DNA of 38,316 bases from a virus, in the IMG/VR virus record IMGVR_UViG_3300011254_000509, positions 1 to 38,316 of that record; one strand, given 5' to 3'. The translations under genes and the position numbers were made by a program. The notes beneath the pieces were generated by a model that did not search any database, was not told the origin of the DNA, and was given only the letters and a program-made list of their open reading frames with translations. This document shows positions 286 through 12,017 of this stretch, one piece after another. Position 1 is the stretch's first letter; each line of letters opens with the position of its first letter.

Positions 286-1725
286 TTATCTTATTTGATA
301 ATCGTTATAATTAGAATTTATCAAATCCCTTATTTGTCGGTTAACCCAGCCGTTTTTATAACCCATTTTATTCGCGTAATCCCGTATAGATTCCTCTCCT
401 TTAGACCTAATTATACGCCAAACGTATGAAGATTTGAAATGTTTTTCTTTCTGAATCTTGATAAGTTCATCTACTTCAAGTTCGGATATTTTCTTTCCTA
501 CAAGTTCAGGAGGTGCTGTCGACTTTACTTCAACTAATGTTCCACCCGTTTCTGGTTCACTCGATTTAATTTCGAATTCATGTCCGCAAAAACTACATTC
601 ACGCGCAGAAGCATAAACCATTGCTTCACATTTCGGACAAGTTTTAACGGCTGCTTCACCTTGTTTGGCTTTTTTCTTTTTGATTTCAAGCTTCCATTTT
701 CTAGGCTCCTCCCAAAGTCCGTGTTCATCATGATTCATTCCAAAATCCAAAACAATGAACTCAGATTTATTCGGATATATCCGTGATCCCCTACCGCAGC
801 ATTGTAGCCATAATGGCAAGGATTTAGTTTTTCGGTTCATTACCACGCACTCAATGGATGGTTCGTCATATCCAGTAGTAAGTATTCCGCAATTATTCAG
901 TACAGGAATAAGTCCGTTCGAAAATGCACGTAATATTCTGTCCCGTTCTTCTTTTGGCGTTTTGGATGTGATCACCTCGGATAAGATTCCAGCTTCGTTA
1001 AATTCGGTACACATGTTTTCAGCGTGTTCGATATTCACATTAAATACTATAGTTTTCTTTCCTTCTGCTTTTTCTCGCCATTTTTCAACTACTCCAGCGT
1101 ATAGTTTCCTTTCGTTAAAATGAGAGAATTGACTCTTCTCGGTATATTCTCCGCGCTGTGTATCTAGGTCCGAAAAATCGTCTTGCATCTGGAACGCTCG
1201 ACATGGGGACAAGTAACCTTCCGCAATTAATTGAGGCGTATCGACTGGATGCACAATGTTAGTATAGTACTTTGGTAGATGCTTTCCTACTGGTGTGGCT
1301 GTGGCTCCAATTACTTTTGCGTTTGGGTACTTTTCTAAAACCTTTGTGAAGTTCCCCTTGTGAGCTTCGTCTATTATTATTAGATCAGGCGAGTATTCAC
1401 CAAGCTCACGGCGTTTAATAGTCTCAACCATTGCTACTGTAGTTTTCGCGTTCGGGTTAAACTGGTTCGATTTCATTTTAGCGTTGACCTCTTGCAATTC
1501 GATACCATGACGAGCGAGTGCCTTAAATGTTTGTTTGAACAGTTCAATCCTATCTGTTAGAATTAATGAAACAGTTCCGCGTTTCGAAGCTAGTCGAACC
1601 ATCTCTGAAAATACTACAGTTTTTCCTGAACCTGTAGTGAGGCAGAGGATTTGTCTTTGTTGTTCATTTGCGAATCCTTGTCGCAAAAGTTCAATTGATT
1701 CGTTTTGATATGGTCTTAGTTTCAT
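286..1725 (-). CDS. DEAD/DEAH-box superfamily 2 helicase with C-terminal zinc ribbon
   Basis: A 479-residue SF2 helicase of the type III restriction/UvsW-like phage class. Visible motifs are Walker A TTGSGKT (30-36), DEAH (118-121), GATATP motif III (139-144) and CGRGSR motif VI (309-314). A Cx2C...Cx2C zinc ribbon follows at residues 362-379. It would use ATP to remodel or unwind DNA during replication or recombination. Its start overlaps the stop of the endonuclease gene upstream as TAATG, so the two are probably co-translated. The helicase assignment is firm; the exact DNA substrate is not known. Confidence 0.9.
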   Translation of the reverse strand: MKLRPYQNESIELLRQGFANEQQRQILCLTTGSGKTVVFSEMVRLASKRGTVSLILTDRIELFKQTFKALARHGIELQEVNAKMKSNQFNPNAKTTVAMVETIKRRELGEYSPDLIIIDEAHKGNFTKVLEKYPNAKVIGATATPVGKHLPKYYTNIVHPVDTPQLIAEGYLSPCRAFQMQDDFSDLDTQRGEYTEKSQFSHFNERKLYAGVVEKWREKAEGKKTIVFNVNIEHAENMCTEFNEAGILSEVITSKTPKEERDRILRAFSNGLIPVLNNCGILTTGYDEPSIECVVMNRKTKSLPLWLQCCGRGSRIYPNKSEFIVLDFGMNHDEHGLWEEPRKWKLEIKKKKAKQGEAAVKTCPKCEAMVYASARECSFCGHEFEIKSSEPETGGTLVEVKSTAPPELVGKKISELEVDELIKIQKEKHFKSSYVWRIIRSKGEESIRDYANKMGYKNGWVNRQIRDLINSNYNDYQIR

Positions 1726-2330
1726 TAATCTTCAGGTATTATGTAAACCCTTTTTACAATGTTTTTTACTCTGATAACTTTATGTTCAAAGTTTTTAGCT
1801 AAAAACAAACCAAACGCCCTTCTAGATATTTTTTCATTTTCTTTTTCCGATAATGTTCCGCAAAAGAAAATGTATAACTCTGACGGTTCAACTTTCATCC
1901 CTCCAAACTCTTTTTTTATTTTCGGTATGCTATTTATCATTATGTAATTCCCCTCTAAATCTTTTTCGTTTTTAACAGAAGTCCTTTTCAAAAGACTAAG
2001 TATTGATTCTTTATTTAAACTGTCATAATAACATTCCAAACATTTTCCGATAAAATTTTTTAATTCTTCTTTTTCATAAGTCTTAAAAAATTCAATGTCA
2101 GATTCATTCAACTCGAAAAATTCACCATTCAAACGTTTATCTTTAAAATGCTCATGCATTTTCTTTTCAATTTTTTTTGGATGAATAGTTTCTATTACAG
2201 ATATCAATGTACAACCGTAAGGTGAGTACATATTCATATGACAAACTCTGTTTTTCAAATTTTTTATAGAATAACCGATTTTGTAATAGTTCGTTTTGTT
2301 CTGATTAATTAAATAAACAAATCCTTTCAT
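1725..2330 (-). CDS. T5orf172/GIY-YIG-like endonuclease
   Basis: 201 residues from the ATG at 2330; a longer in-frame start at 2381 is less likely because the conserved domain begins right at MKGFVYLI. GFVYLI (3-8) and YYKIGYS (15-21) match the GIY and YIG strands, and the later stretch EKKMHEHFKD...NGEFFEL is typical of the T5orf172/MUG113 branch. Many such genes in phages are free-standing mobile nucleases. The gene is visibly richer in A/T runs than the helicase and primase on either side, in keeping with insertion. The C-terminal 100 residues are unrecognised and could give DNA specificity. Confidence 0.75.
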   Translation of the reverse strand: MKGFVYLINQNKTNYYKIGYSIKNLKNRVCHMNMYSPYGCTLISVIETIHPKKIEKKMHEHFKDKRLNGEFFELNESDIEFFKTYEKEELKNFIGKCLECYYDSLNKESILSLLKRTSVKNEKDLEGNYIMINSIPKIKKEFGGMKVEPSELYIFFCGTLSEKENEKISRRAFGLFLAKNFEHKVIRVKNIVKRVYIIPED

Positions 2331-2386: not shown

Positions 2387-2430
2387 ACTTTCTAGTCTTG
2401 TAAACTGCTTAACCCCTATTAATACTATAC

Positions 2431-2573
2431 TTTTATTAAATATATATATATTGTAACACAACAAATGCCACTTAGCACCCTCACAAATATTTTTAATCGT
2501 GAACAATTGATTTTTTTTTGCGCGAAGCAGTTTCGAAAGAAATTTGTGTAACGTTGTGTTACATTTGTTCTTT
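2431..2573. other. AT-rich non-coding spacer with inverted repeats, origin-like
   Basis: The spacer between primase and T5orf172 genes holds no convincing gene. It has an alternating AT run (about 2437-2452), then TGTAACACAAC (2452-2462), whose exact 11-base reverse complement GTTGTGTTACA is at 2553-2563. A third copy, TTGTGTTACA, lies at 2622-2631 inside the primase 3' end. Repeats beside an AT-rich stretch next to a primase gene are what a replication origin would look like, but a regulator site or RNA structure is equally possible. Confidence 0.35.
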
Positions 2574-4778
2574 TTAGAACGGAAGGTCTTGACTTTCAGC
2601 ACTTTTAGACGCAACACTACTTTGTGTTACATTATCCCGAATTACGTGATAAACTCTTTTTGTTATTCCATTTACTCTTTTTATACTTGAATCACCTATG
2701 ACGTTTTTAAGCTCAATAGAAAATCGCCTCATTGAATTAATTTTCTGTCTTGTATTCGTTTCGATATAATCCTTAATTTCTGTACTTGTCAAATATTCGG
2801 AATATCCTCCACCTAAAGATGCAGATTTGAAGAACTTTTGTATTAATTCACGTTCAAACGGCATTACCTCATACTCTTCAGATACTGTTCTAAGACCTGC
2901 TAAATCTTCTTTGTTTAACTTCCACTCGAACCCTGACTCATAGAGTCGTACCAACTCCATAAAGAACTCATCTTTATCAACCGAGTTGTAAAGTTCGTGA
3001 TCTATAGATAAAACGTTTACCGGTAAAATACGAGTATTACCCGTAGGGTCGTTTATAACGTTTGAATCGTTAGAAGTACCGCAAAGTATAGCCAACCGCT
3101 TGAAATCTTCGTTATACCTAGCATATGGAGCACGAAGAGAAAAAATATTTTTCGAGGTTAGTTCCTTGAAACGGCGTTCATCTTGTTTAGATTTGCCGCC
3201 CATCTCATCATCCATAACAACAAGTTTTTGGCACATTAGCATTTCGTCATCTTTTCCAGCGTCCAGTTTCGATTCAGCATAATATTTATTTATTTTAGCG
3301 GGAAGTAATCGCCTAAAAAATTCTGTTTTACCTGAATTTTGCCCCCCAACTAAAGCTAATACAGAACGAACAGGATTACCGTCATAGGCCGCAATAATCG
3401 AGACAAACCATTTCTTCATGAAACTATCAGCATGATCCGTGTTAGTATTTACGGAGCGAATAATATTGTCTATGTTTCCGGTAGAATTTCGGTGACGATT
3501 CTTGTCTATGTATTCCGATATGGGGTTAAATTCTGGTGTATTGTCTGAAAATATTATGGATTCTATCAAATCCTTTGTGACTTCTTTAGAATTAAAACAG
3601 ATACGGGCCTTTAAGTAAATCGTATTCATTCGTTCTTTTTTCAATTCTAGCCCGTTGTTTTTCTCTTCAATCATTCGCGTGATGGAATTTACACGCACCA
3701 TATAATTTTGGCCCATCCATTCAATAAGGGAGTTTATAAGCTGGTCGGGATCACTAGCAACACGAGACAGGTCTATATCTTCACGACTGTACACCTCTTC
3801 CGCTATCCTCTCGGCTATTGCTGGTTCTATTCCGTTAACTTGACTTAGTTGCATTACTACGCCTTCTTTCGTTCGTCCTGACTTCTTACCCATTGCCGCA
3901 ACTTGGACAGCTCTTTGATCAGTTTTAGGTATATCAAAACCGTTCTCTTTGGCTATGTAATAAAACGTTCCAACGGTAACGCCATTATTCTTACCTCTTA
4001 AGCATCTATCGAATTGCTTATCGCATTGCTGGGAATCGTATTTTTCGGAGTTAGAACAAACGGCATGAAAATATTCCCGCCCATTCTCACCAAAACCAGC
4101 AGACAAAGCGAAGCCGATTTTTAAAAACGTTTCATAGTTTGAATCGGTTATGTCCTTCCCTGAATTATGAATATCAGAAATAAGTTTATCAATCTGCTCA
4201 GTCCCCAAAATGATAGGAAGTGAATTTTGTTTCTTTCTTTTGGTGGATTTCGTTTTTGATTTTAATGATTTATGGTTTATAGTCAATTCTGAATCATAAG
4301 ATACAAATCGAAACGAAGCAGGATTTTTTGGCGCTTGGTCTACTGAAATACCATAAGTTGCGAAATAGTAGTGAGAAAGCCAACGATAAGATTCCTTATG
4401 TTTTGCAGGGTTTACTTTAACGATAACGGCAATACCATTTCCGGAAACGGATCTAAACACACAATAGGTATATTTGTCTTCGATTAAGGCGTTTTTGTCG
4501 TTGAAGTTGTCAATGTCAACACAGATAAAACCAGAATGTTCGACCAAAGACACCTCTTCACGGGCCGAAAATGTACCCGAAATAGTAACCCCAGGAAGGG
4601 ACTTTTTCAAACTGTCTCGTTTTGCTTTGTCTTGTTCTTCTCGTATGGGTTCGACTTGATGTTTCCACTTGCCGTACTTAACAGCGTTTAGGAAATCATC
4701 AACTTCCATTGCTTCGGTAGGGACGTGCTTCTCACCCTTAAGGGACGGAAACCGTCCAAATATAGAAATTTTGCTCAT
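2574..4778 (-). CDS. VirE/BT4734-type primase-ATPase (replication protein)
   Basis: 734 residues. The N-terminal BT4734-like region (about 25-165) has acidic VDIDNF (87-92) and FRFVSYD (157-162), as in this primase-like family. A PriCT-2-like region follows (about 190-285). The C-terminal VirE ATPase has Walker A GGQNSGKT (478-485), Walker B LVVMDDE (519-525) and the family signature GTSN...DPTGNTRILPV (567-587). It is the only obvious replication initiator/primase in the window. Its last residues, DLPF, copy the tip of single-strand-binding proteins, which is unusual for a primase. It starts one base after the stop of a 30-aa peptide gene. Family call firm; exact polymerase activity inferred. 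Confidence 0.9.
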   Translation of the reverse strand: MSKISIFGRFPSLKGEKHVPTEAMEVDDFLNAVKYGKWKHQVEPIREEQDKAKRDSLKKSLPGVTISGTFSAREEVSLVEHSGFICVDIDNFNDKNALIEDKYTYCVFRSVSGNGIAVIVKVNPAKHKESYRWLSHYYFATYGISVDQAPKNPASFRFVSYDSELTINHKSLKSKTKSTKRKKQNSLPIILGTEQIDKLISDIHNSGKDITDSNYETFLKIGFALSAGFGENGREYFHAVCSNSEKYDSQQCDKQFDRCLRGKNNGVTVGTFYYIAKENGFDIPKTDQRAVQVAAMGKKSGRTKEGVVMQLSQVNGIEPAIAERIAEEVYSREDIDLSRVASDPDQLINSLIEWMGQNYMVRVNSITRMIEEKNNGLELKKERMNTIYLKARICFNSKEVTKDLIESIIFSDNTPEFNPISEYIDKNRHRNSTGNIDNIIRSVNTNTDHADSFMKKWFVSIIAAYDGNPVRSVLALVGGQNSGKTEFFRRLLPAKINKYYAESKLDAGKDDEMLMCQKLVVMDDEMGGKSKQDERRFKELTSKNIFSLRAPYARYNEDFKRLAILCGTSNDSNVINDPTGNTRILPVNVLSIDHELYNSVDKDEFFMELVRLYESGFEWKLNKEDLAGLRTVSEEYEVMPFERELIQKFFKSASLGGGYSEYLTSTEIKDYIETNTRQKINSMRRFSIELKNVIGDSSIKRVNGITKRVYHVIRDNVTQSSVASKSAESQDLPF

Positions 4779-4779
4779 A

Positions 4780-4872
4780 TCAAAAGAAAAAGCCAGTTGA
4801 ATCGAAGCGTCTAGCCCACGCGACTAGACCGACCACTAAGATTCCAACTGGCATTAAAAGAATGTTTTTCAT
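4780..4872 (-). CDS. 30-residue membrane peptide
   Basis: ATG at 4872, TGA at 4780-4782, with the primase ATG one base further on, so the two are tightly coupled. The peptide is MKNILLMPVGILVVGLVAWA followed by RRFDSTGFFF: one hydrophobic helix, then two arginines, as in single-pass inner-membrane peptides. No family is recognised. A TATATTTG box lies 19 bases upstream. Its DNA also forms a nested inverted repeat, so part of its base order may be constrained by structure instead of coding. A real gene is plausible but not certain. Confidence 0.45.
   Translation of the reverse strand: MKNILLMPVGILVVGLVAWARRFDSTGFFF
4795..4853. repeat. Nested inverted repeat within the small peptide gene
   Basis: The outer arms ccagttgaatc and gattccaactgg pair with one bulge. 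Inside them gtctag and ctagac pair around a 9-base loop (cccacgcga). The structure lies just ahead of the primase start and could affect its translation or act as a DNA site. Confidence 0.45.
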
Positions 4873-4890
4873 ACTGTCGCGTGTACGGTT

Positions 4891-4898
4891 CAAATATA
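4891..4898 (-). promoter_or_regulatory. Possible -7 box (TATATTTG) ahead of peptide/primase genes
   Basis: Leftward TATATTTG matches TAnnTTTG and lies 18 bases before the ATG at 4872, just beyond the end of the preceding gene. No TTG is seen at the expected -33 distance, so this would be a weak or activator-dependent promoter. Confidence 0.35.
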
Positions 4899-4903
4899 CA
4901 AAA

Positions 4904-5098
4904 TCAAAGTGTAAGATTCTTTACATTTAGGAGAATATCTATCGCTTGTTGAAATTTGTCCATTTCTGCTTTGATTTTTAGCTCCTCTAACTCGTCCGAA
5001 ACTTTTCGGGCGTGTCTTAACTCTGGGCTAATAGCTAAATGATACTGTTTTGAAATGTCTTTCCTGTACTCTTTTAGAACTTGTATTGGTGTTTTCAT
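4904..5098 (-). CDS. Small charged helical protein, unknown
   Basis: 64 residues from the ATG at 5098, whose ATGA overlaps the exonuclease stop. A longer frame to 5167 lies wholly inside the exonuclease gene and is not used. The protein is rich in Lys, Glu and Leu with heptad-like spacing (SDELEELKIKAEMDKFQQAI), so a short coiled coil is likely. Being coupled to a recombination exonuclease, it could be an accessory of the recombination set. No family is recognised. Confidence 0.6.
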   Translation of the reverse strand: MKTPIQVLKEYRKDISKQYHLAISPELRHARKVSDELEELKIKAEMDKFQQAIDILLNVKNLTL

Positions 5099-5805
5099 CT
5101 CTCCTGTAAAGTTTCGTAAATATAATCCCGACACGCTTTTACACGTTCGGTTAATTGGTCGATACACTCTTGATCAAAATCGAATTCAAACGAACGGATA
5201 CGCATATCGGGACCCAAATGATCAAAAGACATTTCTTCATGTACTTGGTTCCAAATCTCTTCAACTGTATCCGAATAACCCAAATCGAAAGAACGTTGTC
5301 TAGCTTCTCTTTCAATCAGATTCATTGGCGTATTCATTAGCACATAAAAAACAATGTGCTTTTTTCGACCGACTAGATTCATGTAGACTTGGCCTTGCCA
5401 AAAGTAATCCTTAGATTTTAATTCCTTTTCGAAAAATGGAAACGTTCGAGCCGTCCAGCTTGCTTTATTATCTGCAATATGGTCTGGCTGAATTATATCA
5501 GGCGTACCCGTCATGAATTCGTTTTCAAAGTGCCGAATGTTTGGAACTAAAAACGCATCTGAATAAACGTGCTCGGAAAGATACTCAAGCGCATCAGCTT
5601 CGACAACATTTCCTTTTTCGGTGTATTTATTCGAGAACTGATTAACACGAACCCCCATAAATTCGGGTTGTTCTAGTATCCAGTTTTTCAGGTACGTTTT
5701 ACACGTTTCACCCATAGAACCTTTGGCGCGTCCGTTCGACATTATTTGCCCTGCCGCACTCGCTCGGATTTTGAACGAGTCGGCTATTTGTCTGTTTGTT
5801 CTCAT
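5095..5805 (-). CDS. YqaJ/lambda-exo-like PD-(D/E)XK exonuclease
   Basis: 236 residues. The nuclease core is visible: the helix around TEKGNVVEADALEYL (62-76) gives an acidic residue, GTPDII (100-105) gives the P-D pair (102-103), and DNKAS gives D-x-K (112-114). Later QGQVYMNL matches the conserved Gln motif of YqaJ-type viral recombinases. It would resect double-stranded ends to leave single strands for annealing. Its start overlaps the OB-like gene as ATGA, so the pair resembles a phage exonuclease/ssDNA-binding-or-annealing module. Confidence 0.82.
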   Translation of the reverse strand: MRTNRQIADSFKIRASAAGQIMSNGRAKGSMGETCKTYLKNWILEQPEFMGVRVNQFSNKYTEKGNVVEADALEYLSEHVYSDAFLVPNIRHFENEFMTGTPDIIQPDHIADNKASWTARTFPFFEKELKSKDYFWQGQVYMNLVGRKKHIVFYVLMNTPMNLIEREARQRSFDLGYSDTVEEIWNQVHEEMSFDHLGPDMRIRSFEFDFDQECIDQLTERVKACRDYIYETLQER

Positions 5806-6287
5806 TCCGTCAACAGTTCTTCGTTAGCACTAGACAACGTGTACGCCTTTTTAATCGAGCCGATATCAGTCGAACCGTTCTTAATGGCCTCTTTCGCTGC
5901 GTCCCACTTCTTATGATTCGGCGTAAATTCTGGCAACTTCGGCTTCGTTTCTCGAATCCTTAACGCATCAACAGTTTCGCCAAATGCACGAACCTGAGCA
6001 ACGTATAGTGTAATTCTAAGCCCCGCCCAATCTTCGATAAATGGCGAAGCGGCTAGTTTTTCAATCGTTTTTGCATTTGTCGCGTTTAGAATTAACGGCT
6101 TCTGACCTTTCAGATTCGCAACGATACATTCGTCTTGTCTATTATTAGGCCCCACCACGGTCTTTTTCTCTACCGATACAATCTGGACGTCCAAATCTAT
6201 TGGTTCGTCTCCTGTCATTAGTTCGTACGCCCCTATGTAGTCTTTGTTGGCTAATCGTTTCCAATGAGTTTTAATTTGATTTTTCAT
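5802..6287 (-). CDS. OB-fold-like single-strand DNA-binding/annealing candidate
   Basis: 161 residues. The central part (about 30-112) is beta-rich and ends in a signature WAGLRITLYVAQVRAFGETV then DALRIR, seen in phage proteins beside YqaJ exonucleases. This looks like an OB-type fold, but no catalytic residues are evident. The linked exonuclease suggests it binds or anneals the single strands produced. Its upstream sequence AATAAATTATG and the N-terminal KTHWKRL are repeated about 670 bases upstream beyond the HNH gene, so its original promoter is probably the one at 6979-7008. Function is inferred from context. Confidence 0.6.
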   Translation of the reverse strand: MKNQIKTHWKRLANKDYIGAYELMTGDEPIDLDVQIVSVEKKTVVGPNNRQDECIVANLKGQKPLILNATNAKTIEKLAASPFIEDWAGLRITLYVAQVRAFGETVDALRIRETKPKLPEFTPNHKKWDAAKEAIKNGSTDIGSIKKAYTLSSANEELLTE

Positions 6288-6916
6288 AATTTATTTATTC
6301 TGTTTTTAAATTCTTCTTTAATATGATTAACTACCGACTCATAATAAATTGAGTCTACTAGGTCACTATATTTATTCGATTTTTTCATGTTTTCTTTTCG
6401 ACTAATAACCTGCAAATTGTAAATACTATTTATAACATTACAAGGCGCCCCATCCTTGAACCAACTAACAGGTATTTTATGATCAATACACTCTTTACTA
6501 TTTGGAAACCTACCATTTCTTTCAAGAAAATCCTTTGGAGTAAAATCTAAATATTTGCTTTTAAAATCTAAGTTGTTTGTTTTTAACCTTGATATATGGG
6601 CTCTTATTTGTCTTTCAAATTTAAAGTAAGGATCAATTTCACACCTGTTCTTAATATATTCTACCTGATATCTAGATTTCTTTTCTTTATTTTTTTTTGA
6701 ATACTCTGAAACTCTTTTCTTTATTTTTTTTTGGTTATTTTTATAGTATTCTTTTTGCTGGGTGCTTTTTTTCTTTTTGTATTTGTGATAATTATCATTA
6801 TAGTACTTATTTAAACACTCTTTACATCTAGGCTTATACCCATTCAAAGACCTTGATTCAACGTGAAAATTTGAAACGTCTTTAACTACTCCGCATGAAT
6901 TACATTTTTTTTCCAT
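6284..6916 (-). CDS. HNH homing-type endonuclease with N-terminal zinc finger
   Basis: 210 residues. The N-terminus has Cx2C...Cx2C (C5, C8, C31, C34), as in phage HNH proteins that begin with CxxCG...CKEC. The catalytic part has CIDHKIPVSW (143-152; D145, H146), YNLQVI (166-171) and KENMKK (174-179), a His-Me finger HNH core. A Lys/Tyr-rich middle probably binds DNA. Its last codons run through the leader of the next gene (ATGA overlap). The gene is strongly A/T-biased and sits between a promoter and the OB-like gene, with leader sequence duplicated on both sides: signs of a mobile insertion. Confidence 0.82.
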   Translation of the reverse strand: MEKKCNSCGVVKDVSNFHVESRSLNGYKPRCKECLNKYYNDNYHKYKKKKSTQQKEYYKNNQKKIKKRVSEYSKKNKEKKSRYQVEYIKNRCEIDPYFKFERQIRAHISRLKTNNLDFKSKYLDFTPKDFLERNGRFPNSKECIDHKIPVSWFKDGAPCNVINSIYNLQVISRKENMKKSNKYSDLVDSIYYESVVNHIKEEFKNRINKL

Positions 6917-6956
6917 ACTTAAATATACGAAATAATTTTTTCCAATGTGTTTTCAT
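6900..6956 (-). pseudogene. 18-codon relic of the OB-like gene's start (or leader peptide)
   Basis: Right behind the promoter and GTAACT leader is an ATG (6956) opening MKTHWKKLFRIFKYGKKM, stop at 6900-6902. The OB-like gene at 6287 starts MKNQIKTHWKRL. KTHWK(K/R)L and the DNA AATAAATTATGAAAA are shared. This looks like the original start of that gene, cut off by the HNH insertion. A functional leader peptide coupled to the HNH gene, whose ATG lies inside it, is the alternative. Confidence 0.5.
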
Positions 6957-6978
6957 AATTTATTTTTTAGTTACGGTA

Positions 6979-7008
6979 CAAATATATAAATAAATAATTG
7001 TTTATAAA
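6979..7008 (-). promoter_or_regulatory. Leftward promoter of the HNH/OB/exonuclease operon
   Basis: TATATTTG (6986-6979) is a perfect -7 box. The -33 position, 19 bases away, is TTT instead of TTG. The spacer carries TTTATAAA, and the downstream leader CGTAACTAAAAAATAAATTA matches the leaders at 224 and 35383. Its -33 region overlaps that of the rightward promoter. Confidence 0.6.
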
Positions 7009-7027
7009 AGTTTTTTGTTTATATTTG
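6998..7027 (+). promoter_or_regulatory. Rightward promoter of the 7045 operon
   Basis: TTG (6998-7000), 19 bases, TATATTTG (7020-7027): a perfect Bacteroidota promoter. The start of transcription would be near 7034, giving a very short leader before the ATG at 7045. The palindrome TTTATAAA (7001-7008) is shared with the divergent promoter, so one regulator could control both directions. Confidence 0.75.
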
Positions 7028-7044
7028 TTTCAAAATTATTAATT

Positions 7045-10970: not shown

Positions 10971-11470
10971 ATCGTTTCTGTTCTTAGTTTACCGAATTGC
11001 CTTAAATGTTTTTCAATATCAATTGGAGTAAGTTTATACGGCTCTAAGTATTGTTTAAATCCATTCTGAACCATAAAATAGGCTATAACATTAGCTAATA
11101 ATTCACTGCAAAACTGCTTTTTTGTGTTTTTTTTATATAGTTTGTGAGTTTGATTAAAAAAGAAAAGGATATTTGCCCAATAATCATAACCAGTTACTAA
11201 ATGTTTAAATCCTTCGTAAACTGACATATCAAACATTTCTTCAGGTAAATCTGAATAAATAAATATTGTTGTACCTTCTCTCCCTTTCTTCCAATCTTCA
11301 AAAGGTATATCCCGCACTCCTTCCCCCGCTACTGACTCATAAACTATCCCTTCATTCATCCAAGCAATATGATCAAAAGCACCGTTTGTTTTCATTCGAG
11401 TTATACCATTTACCCAAGAAATAGGCTTTCTTAATTTTACAGGACGATTTGTCAATATTACCTCAATCAT
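10967..11470 (-). CDS. Permuted papain-like (YiiX/NlpC-P60 type) cysteine hydrolase
   Basis: 167 residues from ATG 11470, which overlaps the previous stop; a GTG nine bases upstream is possible. AFDHIAWM (H34) and QFCSELLANVI (C121, with the SE that follows) give the His-before-Cys order of permuted papain-fold amidases of the YiiX/YaeF group. Such enzymes cut amide bonds; next to DUF5675 and spanin-like genes a cell-wall (endolysin) role is likely. An acyl-transfer role cannot be excluded. Confidence 0.65.
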   Translation of the reverse strand: MIEVILTNRPVKLRKPISWVNGITRMKTNGAFDHIAWMNEGIVYESVAGEGVRDIPFEDWKKGREGTTIFIYSDLPEEMFDMSVYEGFKHLVTGYDYWANILFFFNQTHKLYKKNTKKQFCSELLANVIAYFMVQNGFKQYLEPYKLTPIDIEKHLRQFGKLRTETI

Positions 11471-12017
11471 AGTTTTCACTTATGTATGTTGTTATAGTTA
11501 GATTGATTCTATCGAATAGATCTTGAGTGAAATAAGCGTCAATAGTCAATAAATCCAATTCTTCTTTTGCTGTAACCCACCACCCACGATCTATATTCAA
11601 CTTTACTTTTTCAAGTTTCTGTTCTATAGACTTGTTGACTACTCGTGGTAAGTTTTTACCTTTTGAGTTCACTCTCAACTCTGACATTAAGTCCCTAGAC
11701 ATTTTTCTCCCGTCCGTTATCCTTTTAATATATAGTTTTGACTCTATTTTAATTGCATTCTTCTGTTCAGAGTCATTTATCGGATCTCCGATTACATCTA
11801 TTAAATAACTTAAACAATCTTGAACATTATCAAAATGATTATTTTTTTCATCTAGTATATTTCTATAATCCAAATTATATAAGGCAAATTTATGAAGTTC
11901 CAAATGTTCTATGAAAATACTATCGCCTTGATTATAAGCTTTATATTCATATATAGGAAAATAATCATTTTGTATAATGAAATTATCTGAGTATTCTGAT
12001 TTAAATATTTTATCCAT
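11463..12017 (-). CDS. Hypothetical protein between fibre and lysis genes
   Basis: 184 residues, AT-rich codons. The N-terminal part is aromatic and acidic (YSDNFIIQNDYFPIYEYKAY); the C-terminal part is helical (RVVNKSIEQKLEKVKLNI, then WWVTAKEELDLL). No membrane segment, no recognised motif. It starts three bases after the fibre gene, so it may be a tail accessory such as a fibre chaperone. Confidence 0.6.
   Translation of the reverse strand: MDKIFKSEYSDNFIIQNDYFPIYEYKAYNQGDSIFIEHLELHKFALYNLDYRNILDEKNNHFDNVQDCLSYLIDVIGDPINDSEQKNAIKIESKLYIKRITDGRKMSRDLMSELRVNSKGKNLPRVVNKSIEQKLEKVKLNIDRGWWVTAKEELDLLTIDAYFTQDLFDRINLTITTYISENYD

Follow-up and report, generated by a model that had tools for sequence, protein, structure and literature searches.

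The window, by which we mean the whole stretch of DNA analysed, is IMG/VR virus record IMGVR_UViG_3300011254_000509, a metagenomic contig of 38,316 bases that carries the genes of a tailed phage (capsid, portal, terminase and tape measure) whose hosts are Bacteroidetes-type bacteria. Its minus strand holds a replication and recombination operon, which runs from a divergent intergenic region through a gene-start fragment with a short open reading frame, an HNH endonuclease gene and the gene of a predicted OB-fold protein to a RecE-like exonuclease gene. The intergenic region (6917-7044) comprises 128 bases at 14% GC, with TAnnTTTG elements on both strands (putative divergent promoters), and parts of it are conserved among relatives. 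TAnnTTTG is the -7-type promoter consensus of Bacteroidetes, and it is from this known consensus that we assign TATATTTG (6979..6986, minus strand) as a putative promoter element. Behind it, as a first-pass annotation of this DNA had noted, a short open reading frame beginning MKTHWKKL is present at 6956-6900 (minus strand). This mini-ORF has 18 codons (MKTHWKKLFRIFKYGKKM, followed by a stop), and the first eight of them (ATGAAAACACATTGGAAAAAATTA, 6933..6956, minus strand) match the gene starts of relatives. The end of the mini-ORF overlaps the first 17 bases of the HNH gene (6284..6916, minus strand, 210 aa), whose stop in turn overlaps, as ATGA, the ATG of the OB-fold protein gene (5802..6287, minus strand, 161 aa); the latter opens with ATGAAAAATCAAATTAAAACTCATTGGAAACGATTA, encoding MKNQIKTHWKRL (6252..6287, minus strand). 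Next comes the exonuclease gene (5095..5805, minus strand; PHROG 5715 exonuclease, E = 6e-45), in the same gene order as in relatives. Both the order and the overlaps are direct observations. The first-pass annotation had set the arrangement at 6254-6965; the DNA is as it described, but most of it lies slightly outside that span.

The base composition of the HNH gene is foreign: its GC content is 26.5%, against 43.4% for the target OB gene and 37% for the phage, and together with a GIY-YIG nuclease gene described below it has the lowest GC of the 39 phage genes. The third-lowest value in the phage (28%) belongs to a minus-strand gene in the tail/lysis region (11463-12017). The HNH protein has an N-terminal CxxC...CxxC, a lysine-rich middle and the core CIDHKIP...NLQ...ENMKKSNKY. 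It matches PHROG 1035 (endonuclease VII, E = 3.8e-15) and PHROG 2340 (endonuclease, 6e-9), while its match to Pfam HNH_3 is sub-threshold (0.07). Aligned with two distant homologs (L037 and L038), residues D145, H146, N167 and N176 are invariant and the segments IDHKIP, NLQ and ENMKKSNKY are conserved, which gives the catalytic motif D/E-H ... N ... N/H of His-Me finger HNH endonucleases. The AlphaFold model is poor over this core, where a beta-beta-alpha-metal fold would be expected, with pLDDT under 50 at residues 116-196. The protein may be compared with F-CphI, a free-standing phage endonuclease of the endonuclease VII-like DHHRN family that has CX2-4C-DHDH-CX2C around its active site (PMC6083498). 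Both are free-standing phage nucleases, and the best PHROG match of the window protein is called endonuclease VII; however, the HNH type fits better than the F-CphI type because both CxxC pairs are N-terminal and the core reads DHK...N...N. Searches of phages, plasmids, viral contigs and 395 genomes of one bacterial phylum returned no close relatives of the HNH protein, only distant ones, and no solved structure was convincingly matched by sequence to either the HNH or the OB protein. No close homolog at another site was among them, and the HNH gene is presumed to be mobile.

The target gene product belongs to PHROG 21613, a family without assigned function despite the adjoining RecE-like exonuclease gene. 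Its AlphaFold model has a mean pLDDT of 87.9 and is good except for residues 1-12. The best structural matches of the model are OB folds, all at weak Z scores (PrgE 5.7, LEF-3 4.8, RPA 4.4), and several of the weak matches are single-strand DNA binders, so that the product is predicted to be an OB-fold, DNA-handling protein. The KTHW motif near its N-terminus is disordered in the model, yet few other parts are as well conserved across the family, and the insertion point therefore lies in a conserved DNA stretch. Homing sites are usually located in such stretches.

The locus was compared with that of five syntenic relatives (L001-L005, the closest found and partly the same contigs as L043-L047), whose OB protein is about 76% identical; the divergent neighbours are shared, and so is the exonuclease gene that follows the OB gene. 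Further on the loci vary: in L001, two DNA methyltransferase-like genes lie behind the exonuclease gene (4319-6188), where L003/L044 has other genes. In all five, the ATTTATTTATATATTTG block and the same leader are continuous with ATGAAAACACATTGGAAAAAGTTA, with no HNH gene between them; the block is likewise conserved in L044, L046 and L002, all HNH-less, at an about equal distance from the gene start. An HNH gene upstream of the OB gene was found in 0 of 60 homologous loci inspected, and 10 homolog-bearing records searched contained no HNH gene. Relative to its relatives, then, the window carries an insertion: one fixed site is occupied here and uninterrupted in the relatives, a presence/absence polymorphism like that of a free-standing homing endonuclease gene. 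The first-pass annotation had proposed that in relatives lacking the HNH gene the promoter should run straight into a gene starting M-K-T-H-W-K, which is what the five relatives show. They thereby support its view that the HNH gene was inserted between a promoter and its gene, leaving a start relic and keeping the target open.

The identity of the relic is equally clear from the comparison of gene starts. ATGAAAACACATTGGAAAAAATTA shares 23 of its 24 bases with the closest relatives' gene start, matches every one of 26 distinct homolog starts at 21-24 of its 24 bases, and represents the family consensus of the OB-gene start. Among 2.9 million viral contigs, the 24-mer ATGAAAACACATTGGAAAAARTTR has matches in 11, all of them starts of the OB-fold gene; some of these contigs are of phages in which the identity of the OB protein falls to 35-45%. 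Because the leader joins the gene start directly in the HNH-less relatives and the 24-mer is gene-specific, we read the upstream MKTHWKKL piece as the old OB-gene start, severed behind codon 8 when a free-standing nuclease gene without a promoter of its own moved in. The similarity between relic and target gene stops at codon 8; beyond this point there is no match to codons 9 onwards (P = 0.51), and a longer relic was rejected. One might instead regard MKTHWKKL as a regulatory leader peptide or a chance start context, given that the mini-ORF is open for 18 codons and that a 16-base word common to the two flanks, considered below, is partly generic. We judge this very improbable, since the 24 bases match the OB-gene start even in distant phages, every pattern match (11/11) is an OB gene, and the relatives have no such leader ORF.

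An HNH-containing self-splicing intron would place the end of exon 1 after MKTHWKKL and join it to OB codon 9, and relic codons 1-8 joined in this way would indeed restore a normal in-frame protein. Rfam searches, however, gave no match to a group I or group II intron or any other known RNA up to E = 1, and the conserved RNA core of a group I intron with an HNH gene was not found at permissive thresholds. Only 16 bases separate the relic from the HNH gene, and none the HNH gene from the second start, which is too little space to hold an intron core; nor would an intron explain why the 3' side has a second, complete start. We therefore consider an intron hardly credible; no intein was found around the HNH gene either. 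A candidate of a different kind, an RNA hairpin controlling translation of the HNH or OB gene, was rejected, as folding is not unusual at either (z -0.89 and 0.38).

How the second start arose is less certain. The first-pass annotation had pointed to DNA repeated on both sides of the HNH gene, and the repetition is real: TTTTCATAATTTATTT is present at both flanks and, at 16 bases, is the longest word they have in common, against at most 14 in 1000 dinucleotide shuffles of the flanks. Part of the 16-mer is nevertheless ordinary start-codon context, 13 contiguous bases of it recurring at an unrelated start of the same phage, and the better alignment of the flanks is that in the KTHW register. 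There the best local alignment pairs AAAAAT-AAATT(ATG)AAAACACATTGGAAAAAATTA with AAAAATCAAATT---AAAACTCATTGGAAACGATTA (score 35, P = 0.002 from shuffles). In this register the ATG of the first copy has no counterpart in the second, whose new ATG lies 12 bases further upstream; compared with the relic, the second copy has changes in codons 3 and 7 (ACA/ACT and AAA/CGA) as well as the moved start codon. Since the copies differ in these respects and the 16-mer is partly generic, a simple duplication is unproven. It had also been suggested that the end of the HNH gene reuses a duplicated leader, so that the OB gene keeps a start codon. The start is kept, in the ATGA overlap, but a plain duplicate is not established, given the differing codons. 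We thus describe the second start as what appears to be a replacement 5' end. To speak of a clean case, as the annotation did, understates the matter: codons 1-8 went away with the promoter, and the OB gene therefore now has a replacement 5' end.

Target duplication at insertion, in which either the nuclease cut or a repair event doubled the leader and codons 1-8 in place and the second copy then drifted, has the insertion itself in common with our reading and differs only in the origin of the second start. It accounts for the same kind of segment on both flanks and for their local alignment (P = 0.002). On the other hand, the relic is unchanged with respect to the family consensus and all the changes are in the copy under selection, where the reverse is expected if the relic is functionless; this argument rests on few sites and is not decisive. 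We regard such a duplication as a serious possibility, though one on the lesser side of even. Over its N-terminal 41 residues the OB protein is 66% identical to that of L044, against 79% over the remainder (P = 0.09). This would fit a replacement by donor sequence but is not significant, and a recombination boundary inside the OB gene is at most weakly hinted at by these values.

The same phage has a second nuclease gene at a second replication gene. Between its primase and helicase genes lies a GIY-YIG endonuclease gene of the T5orf172/MUG113 type (1725..2327, minus strand, 200 aa; Pfam matches MUG113 3e-15 and T5orf172 3e-9), which, like the HNH gene, has a GC content of 26.5% and whose stop overlaps the helicase ATG (TAATG). 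In L133 and L134 (helicase 82% identical; around 2501), the leader runs straight into the helicase ATG and there is no GIY-YIG gene. The corresponding leader in the window, now preceding the GIY-YIG gene (2389..2566, minus strand), has a long, highly similar match to the L133 primase-helicase intergenic region (score 206). No coding relic of the helicase start was found before the GIY-YIG gene (P = 0.66), and no relatives of this gene were found in viral contigs. By this comparison, two unrelated nucleases appear each to have taken the promoter or leader of a replication gene and to have placed their own stop on its start codon. T5orf172/MUG113 GIY-YIG homing genes of phages cluster near essential phage genes (PMC10448857), and the present one resembles those near replisome genes; unlike the described cases, it sits exactly where leader and start meet, and relatives show the empty site. 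These observations also bear on a metagenome assembly chimera, in which two related phages would have been joined at a gene start. The HNH arrangement is known from a single contig, and no second genome with the HNH gene at the same place was found; yet both junctions are tight, functional overlaps of reading frames (ATGA and 17 bases) and the construction recurs at the second nuclease gene. We think a chimera very improbable.

From these observations we hold it highly probable that a promoter-less free-standing HNH gene inserted in the 5' end of the OB gene. It would resemble the homing genes seg and mob of T4, with the 5' gene end replaced in addition. Homing would have proceeded by target cleavage and repair. 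Codon 8 is the last before the insertion, and upstream of the insert are left the promoter, the leader and the first eight codons, which would now serve as promoter and as translated mini-ORF. As the end of the mini-ORF overlaps the HNH start, the HNH gene is probably translated by termination-reinitiation: mini-ORF and HNH gene would be translationally coupled, ribosomes that start at the old start being able to move on to the HNH gene via the 17-base overlap. The last part of the insert would be a substitute 5' end of the target gene (MKNQIKTHWKRL), its ATG lying on the HNH stop, and because of this overlap a single transcript would still yield the OB protein and the downstream exonuclease.

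In T4, the seg and mob genes frequently take the form of promoter-less cassettes between genes, co-directional with their neighbours and using upstream phage promoters, and segC, segF, mobA and mobC overlap the upstream reading frame by 11-24 bp, which is thought to permit low-level reinitiation (PMC2988022). The window gene is, like segA-G and mobA-E, a promoter-less nuclease cassette, and the 17-base overlap of mini-ORF and HNH gene fits the T4 range. Unlike them, it lies within the coding sequence of its target, behind codon 8, and the target 5' end occurs on both sides of it; in a review of T4 homing endonucleases, neither a start relic nor a duplication was found to be described (PMC2988022). 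A closer parallel to the twofold end is offered by the WHO elements of Torulaspora and Lachancea, in which a homing gene brings a resistant 3' end for FBA1 that takes the place of the old one, which is left as a fragment, and for which allele-specific cutting of FBA1 has been shown (PMC7282813). In the window, too, the target is made whole with a replaced end (6287-6252) and the old end is left as a fragment (6956-6933). Here, however, the arrangement is mirrored, with the 5' end and the promoter affected, and about 24 bases are involved rather than about 400; and the WHO endonuclease is intein-derived with a zinc finger and targets FBA1, while the window has a phage HNH nuclease and a phage OB-fold target. 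The element in the window would thus work like a WHO element without being a member of that group. By analogy with the replaced FBA1 end, the changed 5' end may have come with the donor and may protect against re-cutting. More tentatively, and with rather less than even confidence, we hypothesize that the mobile unit consists of the nuclease and a cut-resistant target 5' end, such that homing would give the target a new start and reuse the recipient's promoter and old start for the nuclease.

Free-standing phage nucleases are usually located between genes. Here an HNH gene lies inside the first codons of a gene, yet the gene survives, because the insert brings a substitute start. In this way a selfish gene would have a simple route into coding sequence that needs neither an intein nor a self-splicing intron. 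The case of the GIY-YIG gene at the helicase suggests that, in this phage group, such genes regularly land where the leader of a replication gene meets its start. The element is of a known kind, the free-standing phage homing genes; what is new is the insertion in the first codons with a replaced 5' end, and since both empty and filled sites are known, cleavage and transfer are directly testable.
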